A stretch of DNA of 64,000 nucleotides, from positions 682,001-746,000 of the forward strand of contig NZ_JAZHRU010000001.1 in NCBI RefSeq assembly GCF_036924525.1. Reading direction: 5' to 3'. Below are positions 1 to 20,031 of the stretch, piece by piece; position 1 is the stretch's first letter, and each line of letters opens with the position of its first letter. The notes under the pieces were generated by a model. It was not told the origin of the DNA. It was given only the letters and a program-made list of their open reading frames with translations, and made no database searches. The stretch comes from Bradyrhizobium sp. AZCC 1719. Its GTDB lineage: Bacteria; Pseudomonadota; Alphaproteobacteria; Rhizobiales; Xanthobacteraceae. A program made the translations under genes and the position numbers.

Positions 1-2
1 AT

Positions 3-440
3 CTGGGTCTGGAGACCGCCTGGAAGCGCTACCGCACCATCCTGGTGAGCGACGCTGGCGGAAAGCTTCAGGCCGAAGAAAGCCCGAAAGCCGATTGGGG
101 CAATCACGCCTATCGCGTGCTCGATCTCGTCGATAACCAGGTGCGATCCCTGCGGAAACGTCAGGTGATCGATTCCTTCAAACAACATACTCGTTCAGGA
201 GCCTATTGGGGAATTCGGACCAACATTCTCGATTACGGACTGGCAGACGCCCTGACTTGTCCATTCGACGCGACCATGCGGCTCGCCGAAACGCCCACCC
301 GGTTGCAAGCCATGGACGATCAATTGCAGGAGCGATTGATCAATTGGGGCTATGCAGTATGCGATGCCGCGATCCGGAAACATTTCCAGTCTGGATTGCC
401 AGCACCCAAGGATTTTCCCTTTCCAGCATCAAAGGTCTGA
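3..440 (+). CDS. Patatin-like phospholipase, C-terminal part (5' end outside window)
   Basis: The frame is open from the window edge at position 3 to a TGA at 438-440; a GTG at 45 is probably internal. The readable part (LGLETAWKRYRTILVSDAGG, then DNQVRSLRKRQ and GAYWGIRT) resembles the C-terminal half of bacterial patatin-like lipases, where the catalytic Asp lies in a D-G/A-G motif; here the DAGG at 50-61 fits that role. The nucleophile GxSxG would lie upstream and cannot be checked. Such enzymes hydrolyse acyl esters of membrane lipids. The stop is 2 bp before the protease gene, so the two are very probably co-transcribed. The family call is fairly sure; the biological role is not. Confidence 0.75.
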   Translation: MGLETAWKRYRTILVSDAGGKLQAEESPKADWGNHAYRVLDLVDNQVRSLRKRQVIDSFKQHTRSGAYWGIRTNILDYGLADALTCPFDATMRLAETPTRLQAMDDQLQERLINWGYAVCDAAIRKHFQSGLPAPKDFPFPASKV

Positions 441-442
441 CC

Positions 443-2401
443 ATGACGGTGCTCATTCCGAGGACCTTGGCCGAATACATTCTGCTTGGACCGACCGGTG
501 ACCGCCGTCAGCTCCAGGACTCGCCGATTCTGGGCGATGTCTGGATCGCGTATGCGAGCGAGGCTGGACCGCAGGAGCTGCTGATCACACCGTACAAGAC
601 GAATACAGCAGGCCTCGTCGCAAACTGGATCGATGACGAAGTCGATCACGATCGACTGATGCATAACGCGAGTGATCGCGAGCCTCGAAAAATCGCCTAT
701 CTGCAGGGTGTAATCGCCGCACGGCTGTACTTCGACGAGGTGCTGCGCGTCATCGTACCGACGACGAACTGGTGGAGCAGCGCGCGCATTCAAAGCGATA
801 TGGCGGTCTATCTGCAGGCCGCAAGCGGCAGTCAACGCATCAACGCCGTTCTGGATACAGTTCAGGAAATGGCGGAACACTGGAGCGATCCCAAGACAAC
901 CAAGAAATCGGCCGGAATGCTGACGGCACTCGATCGCTACGCCGCACTCGCCGGCATTATTCTCTGGGCGGCCCAAACCACCACGATCGGCCCCGATGCA
1001 AAACCGGCGGAACTGGCTGCCGCGATCAAGGCAGGAAAAGGCGACATTGCACGCCTGCTGACCGATTTGTTCTCCGAGATTCTCAGTCGCCAGGAACAGA
1101 ACGACGCAAACCAGCGCAAGCAATGGAAAGGTTCGCTCGTCTATCAGGTTTCGCTCAATCGGCGCGCCGATATGGCGGTCGCGCGATCCGTCCCTTCAGT
1201 CAAGGCGGACGCCGCCCGCCTGCTCTTCACGGTCAATTGCGCAGAGATCGCGTGGGCCGTCATCGATTCCGGGATTCAGGGCGATCACATATGCTTCAAG
1301 GATGCGACCGGGAAGGAATCCAGGGTCGTTGCCAGTTTCGATTTCAGCAACTTTCGCAAGATCGTCAACCTCGACAACCTCAGGATCTTCAACGAAAACG
1401 AAGATCCGGAAATACAGCAGGGCAAGCTCAAGCAGCTTCTGCCGGACGGGCACAAACTGCCCGAAGGGCAGAAACTGAAACAGGCCGGCGCCAAGCTGAT
1501 CTCGAACCTCGTTCAATTGTCCAGGGATGCAAGGGCGCAACGCCCGATTCATTGGGAGCTGGTCGAGCCGTTCATCGAAATCAAAGTCGACACGCGCCCA
1601 TCGGTAAGCGATCACGGCACGCACGTCGCCGGCATCATTGGCGCCAGGGCACCTCAAAAGCGAGCCAAGGCCATTGCGGAAGACGACAGGATCGACGGGA
1701 TGTGTCCTGATATCCAGCTGTACGATTTCAGGGTGCTTTCGCAAAACAGCGACGAGAAAGATACCGAATTCGCGATTATCGCCGCCTTGCAGTACATCAG
1801 GCATCTAAACGAGCGCCACGACCATATTTCAATTCACGGAGCAAACCTCAGTCTTTCGATCAAGCACGATGTGCGGAATTACGCATGTGGCCGAACGCCG
1901 ATTTGCGAGGAGTGCGAGCATCTGGTCGAAAGTGGCGTGGTAGTCGTCGCGGCCGCCGGAAACTACGGATTTCAGAGCTTTACGACTACCGATGGTGCGT
2001 TCGAAAGCTATGCCGCGTTCAGCATCACCGATCCCGGAAATGCCGACGGCGTGATTACGGTCGGATCGACGCATCGATCCCTGCCGCATACCTACGGCGT
2101 CAGCTTTTTCTCGAGCCGTGGTCCGACCGGGGATGGAAGATTGAAGCCCGATCTAGTCGCGCCGGGCGAGCGCATCCACGGTCCGTTCCGGGACGGCTGG
2201 GGCGACCTCGACGGTACGAGCATGGCCGCACCGCATGTCAGCGGCGCTGCAGCAATGCTGATGGCGCGATATCCGGAATTCATCAAGCAGCCGCGCAAGG
2301 TCAAGAAGATATTGTGCGAAACCGCGACCGACCTCGGCCGCGAGCGCAGCTTCCAGGGCAGCGGGCTGCTGGATGTGCTCAGGGCTTTTCAGAGTATTTG
2401 A
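443..2401 (+). CDS. S8 (subtilisin-like) serine peptidase with a large N-terminal domain
   Basis: A 652-residue protein when started at ATG 443; an upstream in-frame ATG at 206 would lie inside the lipase gene and is rejected. The complete S8 catalytic set is visible: Asp275 in AVIDSGIQ, His391 in DHGTHVAG, oxyanion Asn507 in AAGNYG and Ser593 in DGTSMAAPHVSG. Residues 1 to about 260 match no family I recognise. There is no signal peptide, so it is probably cytoplasmic, unlike degradative secreted subtilases. About 115 residues separate the Asp and His motifs, a large insertion for this family. It sits 2 bp after the patatin-like gene and 11 bp before the MBL gene. GC appears lower than in later genes. 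A role as a regulated protease in a defence-like module is inference. Confidence 0.88.
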   Translation: MTVLIPRTLAEYILLGPTGDRRQLQDSPILGDVWIAYASEAGPQELLITPYKTNTAGLVANWIDDEVDHDRLMHNASDREPRKIAYLQGVIAARLYFDEVLRVIVPTTNWWSSARIQSDMAVYLQAASGSQRINAVLDTVQEMAEHWSDPKTTKKSAGMLTALDRYAALAGIILWAAQTTTIGPDAKPAELAAAIKAGKGDIARLLTDLFSEILSRQEQNDANQRKQWKGSLVYQVSLNRRADMAVARSVPSVKADAARLLFTVNCAEIAWAVIDSGIQGDHICFKDATGKESRVVASFDFSNFRKIVNLDNLRIFNENEDPEIQQGKLKQLLPDGHKLPEGQKLKQAGAKLISNLVQLSRDARAQRPIHWELVEPFIEIKVDTRPSVSDHGTHVAGIIGARAPQKRAKAIAEDDRIDGMCPDIQLYDFRVLSQNSDEKDTEFAIIAALQYIRHLNERHDHISIHGANLSLSIKHDVRNYACGRTPICEECEHLVESGVVVVAAAGNYGFQSFTTTDGAFESYAAFSITDPGNADGVITVGSTHRSLPHTYGVSFFSSRGPTGDGRLKPDLVAPGERIHGPFRDGWGDLDGTSMAAPHVSGAAAMLMARYPEFIKQPRKVKKILCETATDLGRERSFQGSGLLDVLRAFQSI

Positions 2402-2412
2402 GGAGGCTGCCC

Positions 2413-3780
2413 ATGATTTTCAGTCTGGACGTCCGGCGGGCACGTAAGGGCGATTGCCTGCTGCTGCACTTCGGCACCGAGCAGGAGCCCGGGCTCATCA
2501 TGATCGACGGCGGACCCAAGTCGGTCTATGCGCCGCATCTCAAGCCGAGATTGATAGAAATCCGCAACGCGCGCAAGATCAAGAAGAACGATCCGCTGCC
2601 GATCGACGTGCTGATGGTAAGTCATGTGGACGACGATCATATCCAGGGAATTCTGGATTTCACCAAGGAAGAAATCGCCAATGTGGAGACGCACAAGCCG
2701 CGTCTGCTGAACGTGTTCAGCCTGTGGCACAACAGCTTTGACGATATTATTGGCGGTCAGCCGGCGGAATTGACGGCGAGGGTGAACGCGACATTCAAGA
2801 CGGAGGCCAGCACCGGAGCGGTCGAGCTGTCCGACGAGAAAGTCGGAAACGTGGAAGATATCTTCATCGACCAGAATCCCGGAGGCAATGACGCCGCGGA
2901 TGCGGAAGTGGTTGGAAGTTCCCTGAAGGTACTCGCCAGCATCGCGCAGGGCTTTCGGCTGAGAAAGGACGCCCAGCGGCTCGGCTATGGGCGCAACGCC
3001 GAGTTCGGGGGGAAACTCATCGTCGCGCCACAAGGCAAGGCGCCGATCAGGATAGCCAATTCGCTGGACGTCACCGTCATCGGCCCCATGCTTGAAGAGA
3101 TTCAGGCGCTGCACAAAGACCATCAGAAATGGCTTGATGATCTCAAGAAGCAAGGAAAGACGGCCGAAGAGGCTCTCGCCGCCTATGTCGACAAATCCGT
3201 TCCCAATCTGTCGAGCATAGTAGTGCTCGTGGAGGCAGACAAGAAGCGGATGCTGCTGACCGGGGATGCGAGGGGCGACAAGATTCTCAAGGGGCTGCAA
3301 CTGGCGGGCAAGCTCGACCGGGACAACGGCACGAAGATCGAAGTCGATCTTCTCAAGGTGCCGCATCACGGAAGCTCCAATAATCTCGACAAGGATTTCT
3401 TCGAGCACATCATCGCGAAGCATTATGTGTTCTCGGGCGACGGCCAACACGGAAATCCGGAACGGGAAAGCCTCGAGATGCTGCTGAAGGCGCGCAAGGA
3501 TGGCAATTACCAGATACACCTAACGTATCCGTTGAAGGAAATAGACCGGCTGCGCGAAGATGACTGGAACAAGGAACGCAACAAGCAGATCGCGCGTAAG
3601 AAGAAGAGCGGAAAAGGTACGGTACGCGAGGAATGGTCGGCGCAAGATCACAGTCTGTTGGCGCTTTTCGATGCCAATCCACAATTCAAGGAAAAACTCA
3701 GGATTGTCGACGAGAAGAAGCCGCATATTATCGATCTAGGCGATCCGCTGGCGGCTTCCTGGCCGGAGCTGGCCAATTGA
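2413..3780 (+). CDS. Metallo-beta-lactamase fold hydrolase, ComEC-like soluble type
   Basis: A 455-residue protein. ATG 2413 is chosen because an AGGAGG ribosome site lies at 2401-2406, overlapping the last base of the protease stop. MBL features run in order: the N-terminal GDCLLLHFG strand, IDGG near residue 37, the metal motif H71-V-D-D-D75-H76 (first part of HxHxDH, with Asp in place of the second His), Asp285 in LLTGDARGD, and PHHGS at 317-321, which is typical of ComEC/Rec2-type MBL domains. No membrane segment is present, so this is the stand-alone soluble form. Members act on nucleic acids, nucleotides or other phosphoesters; the substrate here is unknown. The C-terminus is rich in Lys and Glu. 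Third gene of the lipase-protease-MBL cassette. Confidence 0.82.
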   Translation: MIFSLDVRRARKGDCLLLHFGTEQEPGLIMIDGGPKSVYAPHLKPRLIEIRNARKIKKNDPLPIDVLMVSHVDDDHIQGILDFTKEEIANVETHKPRLLNVFSLWHNSFDDIIGGQPAELTARVNATFKTEASTGAVELSDEKVGNVEDIFIDQNPGGNDAADAEVVGSSLKVLASIAQGFRLRKDAQRLGYGRNAEFGGKLIVAPQGKAPIRIANSLDVTVIGPMLEEIQALHKDHQKWLDDLKKQGKTAEEALAAYVDKSVPNLSSIVVLVEADKKRMLLTGDARGDKILKGLQLAGKLDRDNGTKIEVDLLKVPHHGSSNNLDKDFFEHIIAKHYVFSGDGQHGNPERESLEMLLKARKDGNYQIHLTYPLKEIDRLREDDWNKERNKQIARKKKSGKGTVREEWSAQDHSLLALFDANPQFKEKLRIVDEKKPHIIDLGDPLAASWPELAN

Positions 3781-3963
3781 CCCGCCCACGCGGGCCCTAG
3801 TGATGAAGCTAGCGGCTAACACCGTTCCGGCTTCGCCGGCATCAGAACCCGAGGGCCACACAGCGGAACGGGATATCGCAGGCGAGATTTGCACCGGCCG
3901 GCGATGCGGTGGAACGAACGTCGATCGATCAGATTGTGTCTTGATCCAACCGGAGATCGTTCC

Positions 3964-19356: not shown

Positions 19357-20031
19357 ATGTCGGACCAACGCATTGCCACCGCCCCGGGCGCTGCGCCCGC
19401 CGGGCAGTTACCCGTTTCGCCCAATAATCCCTGCCCCTTCCTGCGCGCATTGGTCGCCAACGGCTATGTCGGCGGCCATGTCGTGCCGCTCTCGCAACTC
19501 TCCGAAATGATCGGATTGGCAAGCGGCGAAACCGGCTCGGCTCAAAAAGAGGTGCGGCGGAAAGCCTGGATGGTCGCCGTCATTGCCAACGGCCTCGGGC
19601 CGCTGCGCGTATTCAAGAGTGCAACGTCTGGCGCCGTGCTCGACGAGCTGCGCAACGGCCCGCTCGACAAGCATGGCGGCGGTTCACGCATTCTCGACGC
19701 CGAAGCAAACGTCCATGAGGACCAAATCGAACGGCTCGCCAGCTTCGGCAAGGACTGCAAGGATCCCGCCGGAGGCATCGAGATCGGGCTGACAGCGAAG
19801 GAGATCGAGGCCTTCATGGCAGACAACATCAAGCGCGCCGGCGATGCCGCGCGCTGGTACTTCCCGATCCTGATGAAGGGCGAATGGCCGGTCCTGTTGA
19901 AGATCCTCGGCAAGGGCGAAGGCGAGGCGCGATACCTCAGCGTCGCCGAGGTCAGGACGCTGTTCGTCGAGCGGCGGCTGCCCGAGCGGATCACGGATCG
20001 GCTGCCGAAGCCGGCGGCTGCCAAGATGTGA
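19357..20031 (+). CDS. Conserved-looking hypothetical protein
   Basis: A 224-residue soluble protein from ATG 19357. Near the N-terminus is NNPCPFLRALVANGYVGG, and the middle has ANGLGPLRVFKS and SRILDAEANVHEDQIERLASFG; near the C-terminus AARWYFPILMKGEWPVLLKILG. It has no signal peptide, membrane segment or motif I can link to a function. The NPCPFLR segment with one Cys recurs in my memory of rhizobial proteins of unknown role, but I cannot name the family. Codon use and GC match the surroundings. It stands alone, between the second cyclase and a repeat. Confidence 0.7.
   Translation: MSDQRIATAPGAAPAGQLPVSPNNPCPFLRALVANGYVGGHVVPLSQLSEMIGLASGETGSAQKEVRRKAWMVAVIANGLGPLRVFKSATSGAVLDELRNGPLDKHGGGSRILDAEANVHEDQIERLASFGKDCKDPAGGIEIGLTAKEIEAFMADNIKRAGDAARWYFPILMKGEWPVLLKILGKGEGEARYLSVAEVRTLFVERRLPERITDRLPKPAAAKM

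Follow-up and report, generated by a model that had tools for sequence, protein, structure and literature searches.

What do a patatin-like phospholipase, an S8-family subtilase and a metallo-beta-lactamase (MBL) fold protein do together when their genes are packed almost end to end? Three such genes open the 64,000-nucleotide stretch of Bradyrhizobium sp. AZCC 1719 analysed here (contig NZ_JAZHRU010000001.1, positions 682,001 to 746,000; hereafter the window), and a preliminary description of the DNA had tentatively placed them among bacterial conflict systems of the abortive-infection kind. Our reading is that they form an anti-phage cassette that acts by abortive infection, is gated by its protease and travels as exchangeable cargo, and we put the probability of this, with its mechanism as set out here, at roughly 0.6. 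The S8 protease would be held inactive by its own propeptide-like N-terminal region, likely also the part that senses the trigger. Upon infection it would become active and cut two disordered insertions in the MBL protein; this cleavage would open a ComEC-type nuclease site, leading to destruction of DNA. The patatin, as a second effector, would attack phospholipids of the membrane once that protease, or that trigger, had released it. That the cassette has some defence role, by whatever mechanism, we consider quite probable. The conflict reading is well supported, short of proof: co-occurrence, recurrence and defence neighbours speak for it, and from these we infer the role.

The tight packing of the three hydrolases is borne out by the frame coordinates, with gaps of 2 base pairs (bp) from patatin to S8 and 11 bp from S8 to MBL, each measured to the ATG (Table 1). 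The window opens inside the patatin gene. Extension upstream, as the preliminary description had suggested, recovered the complete lipase of 378 amino acids (aa), whose start lies 697 bp 5′ of window base 1 in L002 coordinates (L002 base = window base + 16001). All three proteins exceed their Pfam cut-offs (Patatin 78, Peptidase_S8 140 and Lactamase_B 33 bits), and the Pfam, PADLOC and NCBIfam matches are consistent with these classes. The residues picked out earlier are in place: S8 Asp275, His391 and Ser593 are intact and conserved across a 53-protein alignment, and the MBL protein has both H71-VDDD-H76 and PHHGS, its metal residues being kept in 45/45 alignment rows. A 19-residue hydropathy scan, run without a signal-peptide program, found a hydrophobic N-terminus in none of the three, in agreement with the earlier view that no signal-peptide enzyme is among them. 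The host genome is a single contig of 7.2 Mb with 8 patatin, 4 S8 and 34 MBL matches; by the listed coordinates, the window locus is the only place where two different families of the three lie within 5 kb.

Table 1. Features of the cassette in window coordinates (pLDDT, predicted local distance difference test; A5 and A6, alignments of S8 and MBL proteins)
Feature	Position	Strand	Basis and remarks
Patatin-like phospholipase gene, 3′ part	1..440	+	Whole gene 378 aa, L002:15305-16441; Pfam Patatin
S8 subtilase, 652 aa, cytoplasmic, propeptide-like N-terminal part	443..2401	+	Pfam Peptidase_S8, model
MBL-fold protein, 455 aa, ComEC/LmuA/Avs1a type, putative gated pro-nuclease	2413..3780	+	Pfam, PADLOC, model
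Window part of 5,077-bp insert	1..3909		L002 14834-19910; empty sites in 11/60 genus genomes
S8 residues 42-244, propeptide-like elements and helical insert	566..1174	+	Model alignment; boundaries inferred
Codon of catalytic Asp275	1265..1267	+	Sequence, alignment A5
Codon of catalytic His391	1613..1615	+	Sequence, alignment A5
Codon of catalytic Ser593	2219..2221	+	Sequence, alignment A5
Metal motif H71-V-D-D-D-H76	2623..2640	+	H71, D73, D75, H76 in 45/45
MBL insertion 1, residues 116-162, candidate protease target	2758..2898	+	Model pLDDT < 50; variable in A6
MBL insertion 2, residues 231-264, candidate protease target	3103..3204	+	Residues 259-264 pLDDT < 50
PHHGS motif, residues 317-321	3361..3375	+	Sequence

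The association recurs well beyond this genome. A search of 295 genomes of the family (expectation value, E, 1e-20) returned S8 relatives in 21, of which 16 are full-length. An MBL gene is adjacent in all 16 full-length loci and a patatin gene is present in 15, two of them broken. The preliminary description had allowed that the three genes might seldom co-occur; 15/16 full-length S8 loci have both partners. Seen from the MBL side, the gene was found in 20 genomes of the family, beside S8 in 18 and as a remnant in two (L187, L188).

Moreover, the trio is a discrete insertion. The right junction of the insert falls at window 3909/3910 and the left one 5′ of the window, and patatin, S8 and MBL are its only sizeable genes. 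We searched one set of 60 Bradyrhizobium genomes for each of the two flanks and aligned 14 stretches. The insert is absent from 11 genomes (L252-L261, L264), where 22-67 bp stand in its place, the flanking sequence breaking off near L002 14833 on the left and restarting near 19911 on the right; in 45 others the two flanks were not close together among the matches listed. In G730 (L251) the insert is present, S8 and MBL being 95% and 94% identical, with the patatin gene mostly deleted. The same site in G235 holds a KAP NTPase gene (L263:3723-5966; Pfam 153 bits, PADLOC PifA 385 bits) alongside an incomplete copy of the flank gene; together the PifA-like gene and this copy mark a small exchange site. 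It had been suggested that a sensor gene, or else an unrelated housekeeping operon, might lie upstream. Neither belongs here: in 11 relatives the upstream gene, itself flank, is joined directly to the downstream flank, so the insert starts 3′ of it and includes no upstream sensor gene, and a housekeeping operon is rejected on the same empty sites. At this site in G688 (L262) there is a 309-aa frame that resembles a glutathione transferase by eye.

We then looked to wider taxa. The MBL alignment (A4), run blind against 398 genomes from the phylum, gave 8 positives: the own genome, G105 and six others. The trio appears in another family of the class in the order S8-MBL-patatin (L279), and a patatin-MBL pair outside the class lies near a contig end (L280). 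L282 has a protein with an HETTH motif, an MBL (recognised by motif) and a patatin, and beside them a Canu-like set in which an MBL and a caspase (Peptidase_C14 38.5 bits) are accompanied by a gene that matched nothing in Pfam. L281, L283 and L284 are DRT (RT_II-A 657 bits), Hachiman (HamB 853 bits) and Lamassu (LmuB 780 bits) loci with an MBL and a trypsin-like gene, the latter called below the Trypsin_2 cut-off in L281, above it in L284 and by visual inspection in L283. All three loci are of published types and serve as an unplanned positive control.

Plasmids carry the genes as well: 22 records match S8 at E 1e-40, of which 7 were inspected. A Sinorhizobium plasmid has patatin-S8-MBL in the window's order, flanked by insertion sequences, and a Paroceanicella plasmid has patatin, an unknown gene, S8 and MBL. 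On a plasmid of Miltoncostaea (Actinomycetota) the order is S8-MBL-Tle1-like phospholipase (PF09994 206 bits) with gaps of 7 and 7 bp. Methylorubrum extorquens pCMU01 (L285:3466-10141) encodes a complete Pycsar set of PycC, E2 and PycTIR (731, 285 and 306 bits), followed after 288 bp by S8-MBL. Plasmids of Rhizobium phaseoli and R. leguminosarum have FRG-pYEATS, S8 and MBL, with S8 split in two in R. leguminosarum; an R. indicum plasmid has S8 with an alpha/beta hydrolase relative. A generic scan for S8 motifs (HGTHVAGI, GTSMAAPH) gave a partner by tblastn in 4/80 loci: an alpha/beta hydrolase in L055, L057 and L058, and an MBL in L051, a metagenome-assembled genome in which a Tle1-like phospholipase (240 bits) and a ThsB-like TIR gene (196 bits) lie near S8-MBL. 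Recurrence in distant taxa, which the preliminary description proposed to check, is found for the trio in another family and on plasmids, and for S8-MBL in Actinomycetota. Nearness to other defence genes, a further check proposed there, was seen for Pycsar, 6A-MBL, caspase-MBL, TIR and PifA-like genes and failed at the Rhodopseudomonas-type loci, which are weighed below. Taken together, the cassette is inherited and inserted as a unit, in the company of defence genes.

Three further observations concern S8-MBL surroundings. The stretch on pCMU01, a conjugative plasmid, is near integrase, VapBC and IS21 genes. FRG-pYEATS proteins are encoded 5′ of S8-MBL at L289:5601-9971 and L291:4739-9045, with a SIR2-family gene next in L289. 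The S8-MBL pair of G238 (L190:4347-10643), a divergent one, has a phage-type integrase gene ~1.7 kb away.

The proposed mechanism has a precedent. MBL pro-DNases with two disordered insertions are described, in the main text of the source, as protease-activated in Hachiman (HamM), AVAST (Avs1a) and Canu (CanC): those of Hachiman and AVAST are cut and activated by trypsin-like proteases and that of Canu is activated by a caspase, the conserved cleavage residue in each insertion being Ile in Hachiman and AVAST and Gly in Canu; such pairs also occur in Lamassu and DRT, and further MBL homologues lie beside proteases of 'other diverse families' (PMC12799240). The words subtilase, S8, patatin and lipase do not occur in that main text, supplements aside. 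The window locus shares with these pairs the MBL family, ComEC-like and with two disordered insertions, an adjacent protease gene and mobility between systems. It is set apart from them because the protease class differs, being S8 rather than trypsin-like or caspase; moreover, the window S8 has no fused known sensor domain (Pfam) and a patatin is added. By homology to HamM, Avs1a and CanC, the MBL protein would be cut by S8; DNase activity of the MBL, S8 as sensor and activation of the patatin are likewise put forward as probable parts of the scheme. The preliminary description suggested that the protease could switch on the lipase, and here the precedent helps in part: protease gating is established in principle, but of an MBL and not of a lipase (PMC12799240, main text).

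The predicted MBL structure fits a ComEC-like MBL with an intact metal motif and two disordered insertions. H71, D73, D75, H76, D285 and H319 are identical in all 45 rows of alignment A6. The model (pLDDT 83.5; predicted template modelling score, pTM, 0.85) has exactly two segments with pLDDT < 50, residues 116-162 and 259-264, and the profile has 159 columns between two metal segments, against 68 residues in the ComEC nuclease 9ic4. ComEC nucleases are matched by the profile in the PDB (best E 1.5e-6), and the top Foldseek hit of the model is the choline esterase Pce, with the ComEC domain 9ic4 in second place (E 1.6e-9). PADLOC gives LmuA 172 (residues 3-393), RTasMBL 119 and Avs1a 107 bits. 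Among close homologues only, insertion 1 has the motif AS[VIFLA] in 111/115 and a second motif, LAA[FY], occurs in 115/120. For ComEC itself, the own genome gave partial matches only.

For the protease, alignment A5 comprises 53 S8 proteins: the window and the loci contributed 13, and 40 were chosen among 120 listed homologues; the catalytic Asp is kept in 51/53 (Asn in 2), His in 53/53 and Ser in 53/53. The model (pLDDT 79.5, pTM 0.88) predicts propeptide-like elements, namely strands and helices at 44-107 and strands at 233-244, with a helical insert at 114-222. Unprocessed pro-subtilisins match it from residue 42 over 321-336 residues and mature subtilisins over ~248 residues (VIA-align). 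Therefore part of the N-terminal region is a propeptide-like fold, and the model places such a fold N-terminal to the catalytic domain, as in a zymogen. The 260-residue N-terminal region, which the preliminary description could not identify, is thus in part accounted for. Conservation in this region is 48%, compared with 68% for the catalytic domain, as would be expected of a sensing part. The N-terminal region (A2) found no match among PDB sequences, and a search of 385 genomes from the class recovered it in the own genome alone; the latter is a weak negative, because at most six candidates per genome were scored and the trio of L279, from the same class, emerged in another draw. Four cysteines of S8, Cys421, Cys482 and Cys488 (53/53 each) and Cys491 (51/53), at window 1703-1705, 1886-1888, 1904-1906 and 1913-1915, are conserved and perhaps form a metal or redox site.

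Membership of the trio in Lamassu, AVAST type 1, 6A-MBL, CBASS and IetAS is rejected on scores and absent partners. Lamassu is rejected since the insert has no LmuB SMC-like protein, the LmuA match reflecting the MBL effector, and AVAST type 1 since NCBIfam Avs1a scores 161 bits, below its cut-off of 420, and no STAND NTPase is in the insert. The anti-phage 6A-MBL operons (NF058523, NF058524) of L183 and L186 (NCBIfam 427 and 388 against 220; 582 and 670 against 320) hold an MBL and a patatin 42% and 35% identical to that of the window, with an E2-E1-JAB protein where the window has S8; the MBL of the window reaches 32 bits, far below the cut-off of 220, and no paper was found under the name 6A-MBL. 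The S8 and MBL that directly follow PycC, E2 and PycTIR on pCMU01 are 52% and 45% identical to those of the window, whereas genes for a cyclase, an E2 or a TIR protein are absent from the window insert. CBASS with CapV shares a patatin effector, with a weak PADLOC match (21 bits); the trio includes no CD-NTase, and NCBIfam CBASS_lipase scores 13 against 200 bits. IetAS shares an S8 subtilase as a defence protein (PADLOC IetS 35 bits), but NCBIfam IteS scores 19 against 900 bits and the insert is without the partner AAA ATPase. No paper describing a patatin-S8-MBL trio was found, supplements, preprints and most subscription papers lying outside the search.

Which of the two candidate effectors matters most is the point on which the leading alternative turns. 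The patatin scores well above the Pfam cut-off (27.7 bits), and Ser60 and Asp227-Gly-Gly, presumably contributing the catalytic dyad Ser60/Asp227, are identical in 13/13 intact copies (A3). Solved structures matched by its profile are the phospholipases ExoU, cPLA2 and VipD, in the nucleophile region only. It is the best conserved of the trio (mean identity 0.68, against 0.60 and 0.55). Its relatives occupy 24 loci in 23 of the 295 family genomes: 15 with S8 and MBL, three with an HETTH protein and MBL (L180, L181, L184), two inside 6A-MBL operons (L183, L186) and one with an MBL-like gene and a Tle1-like phospholipase (L185). This conservation, the retention of patatin where an HETTH or E2-E1-JAB protein replaces S8, and the Tle1-like phospholipase in its place in L287 and nearby in L051 would suit a scheme in which the patatin is the main effector, released or matured by S8, and the MBL a regulator that, for example, destroys a nucleotide signal. 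We think this unlikely, as the patatin is broken in L031 (internal deletion) and L040 (frame break), mostly deleted in L251 and absent from L044 with S8-MBL intact, the trio includes no cyclase, and relatives of the window MBL are DNases in the systems tested in the main text of PMC12799240.

Conversely, S8-MBL could be a complete protease-nuclease system and the patatin an independent hitch-hiker in the same insert. Pairwise distances in 10/13 intact trios (L038, L039 and L042 left out) correlate at r 0.95 for S8 and MBL and at 0.59 and 0.60 for the patatin with them (0.95, 0.70 and 0.59 with L279 added; 0.87, 0.81 and 0.82 without L041 and L279), values that shared ancestry also inflates. 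In L041, ordered S8-MBL-patatin, the patatin is 63% identical to the others, S8 40% and MBL 37%. From this divergence and the correlations, S8-MBL rather than the lipase therefore looks like the tight core, with patatin recruited more than once, and S8-MBL stands without patatin in L044, L051, L189, L190, L285, L287 and L289. Full independence is nevertheless doubtful, more so than a patatin-led scheme, given that a patatin is found at 15/16 full-length S8 loci, that the trio is kept together in two different gene orders (L041, L279) and that another phospholipase is present in L051 and L287. In genome G292, S8-MBL (L044:7690-10811) and a lone related patatin (L182:7842-8999) occupy separate loci, which may represent a system that is split and works in trans.

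The presence of three hydrolases, and of ordinary genes around several copies, would suit an accessory metabolic operon serving routine turnover of lipids and proteins inside the cell; the patchy presence of S8 (21/295 genomes), the empty sites, the plasmid copies amid insertion sequences and the recurrent named defence neighbours make it highly improbable. Least credible of all is a secreted or injected toxin set against other cells, for although the injected phospholipases ExoU and VipD are among the few solved matches and Tle1-like lipases occur as alternatives, no hydrophobic N-terminus is present, the insert has only three sizeable genes and the ExoU match is short (~70 residues, E 2e-4).

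Several points weigh against the gated cassette as we propose it. No experimental work on the trio was found and no trigger or sensor was identified for the cassette. The same losses of patatin in L031, L040, L044 and L251, together with three of the 24 patatin loci (L178, L179, L182) that have no S8 or MBL in the 3-4.5 kb inspected, suggest that the patatin may be an optional or independent component. Five more distant S8 genes (L046-L050) have an alpha/beta hydrolase (GHSFGAR motif) next to them, with no MBL found, and the flanks of the Rhodopseudomonas-type loci look like ordinary genes by eye. Candidate cleavage motifs in the insertions are not universal in the MBL, the window protein having the second and not that of insertion 1. 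In the S8 model, weak stretches (pLDDT < 50) include residues 544-559 and 630-641; a simple catalytic-motif pattern fails once for the S8 of L287, where Ser is kept (GTSQAAP), and misses the Asp motif in L289. Among viral contigs, S8 gave 2 pattern stretches, neither encoding a relative, and no phage record matched the MBL at E 1e-10.

The S8-MBL module is seen in patatin, Tle1-like lipase, FRG and Pycsar settings. Beyond the gated cassette, we tentatively suggest that it could be a separately evolved, widely swapped immune execution module in which a zymogen-like subtilase senses infection and opens a DNase and a phospholipase at once. If so, it would be a bacterial parallel to the dying animal cell, where one protease drives DNA destruction and membrane lysis. 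If the gated cassette itself is as we propose, the protease-gated nuclease principle of 2025 would extend to subtilases, a membrane-attacking phospholipase would be added to a protease-nuclease cassette, and patatins, MBLs and proteases now filed under separate systems would become linked. The release of two death effectors by one protease would become testable, with defined insertions for mapping and the empty-site strains as natural controls.

Lastly, other proteins occupy comparable positions. A protein with the motif HETTH...HEAFAD replaces S8 between or beside patatin and MBL at L180:9120-12465, L181:7737-11074, L184:4266-7890 and L282:2816-7086. These proteins gave no Pfam match; from the motif they are probably zinc peptidases, so that a protease not homologous to S8 would complete a trio of similar make-up. 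A sister group of S8 proteins with an alpha/beta hydrolase and no MBL comprises L046-L050, L055, L057, L058 and L290; one neighbour of alpha/beta hydrolase type, when tested, gave no Pfam match. At L054:5450-7831 and L056:5228-7819 a single frame encodes both an S8 domain and a region with the alpha/beta-hydrolase motif, the Abhydrolase_6 match of L056 being below the cut-off.

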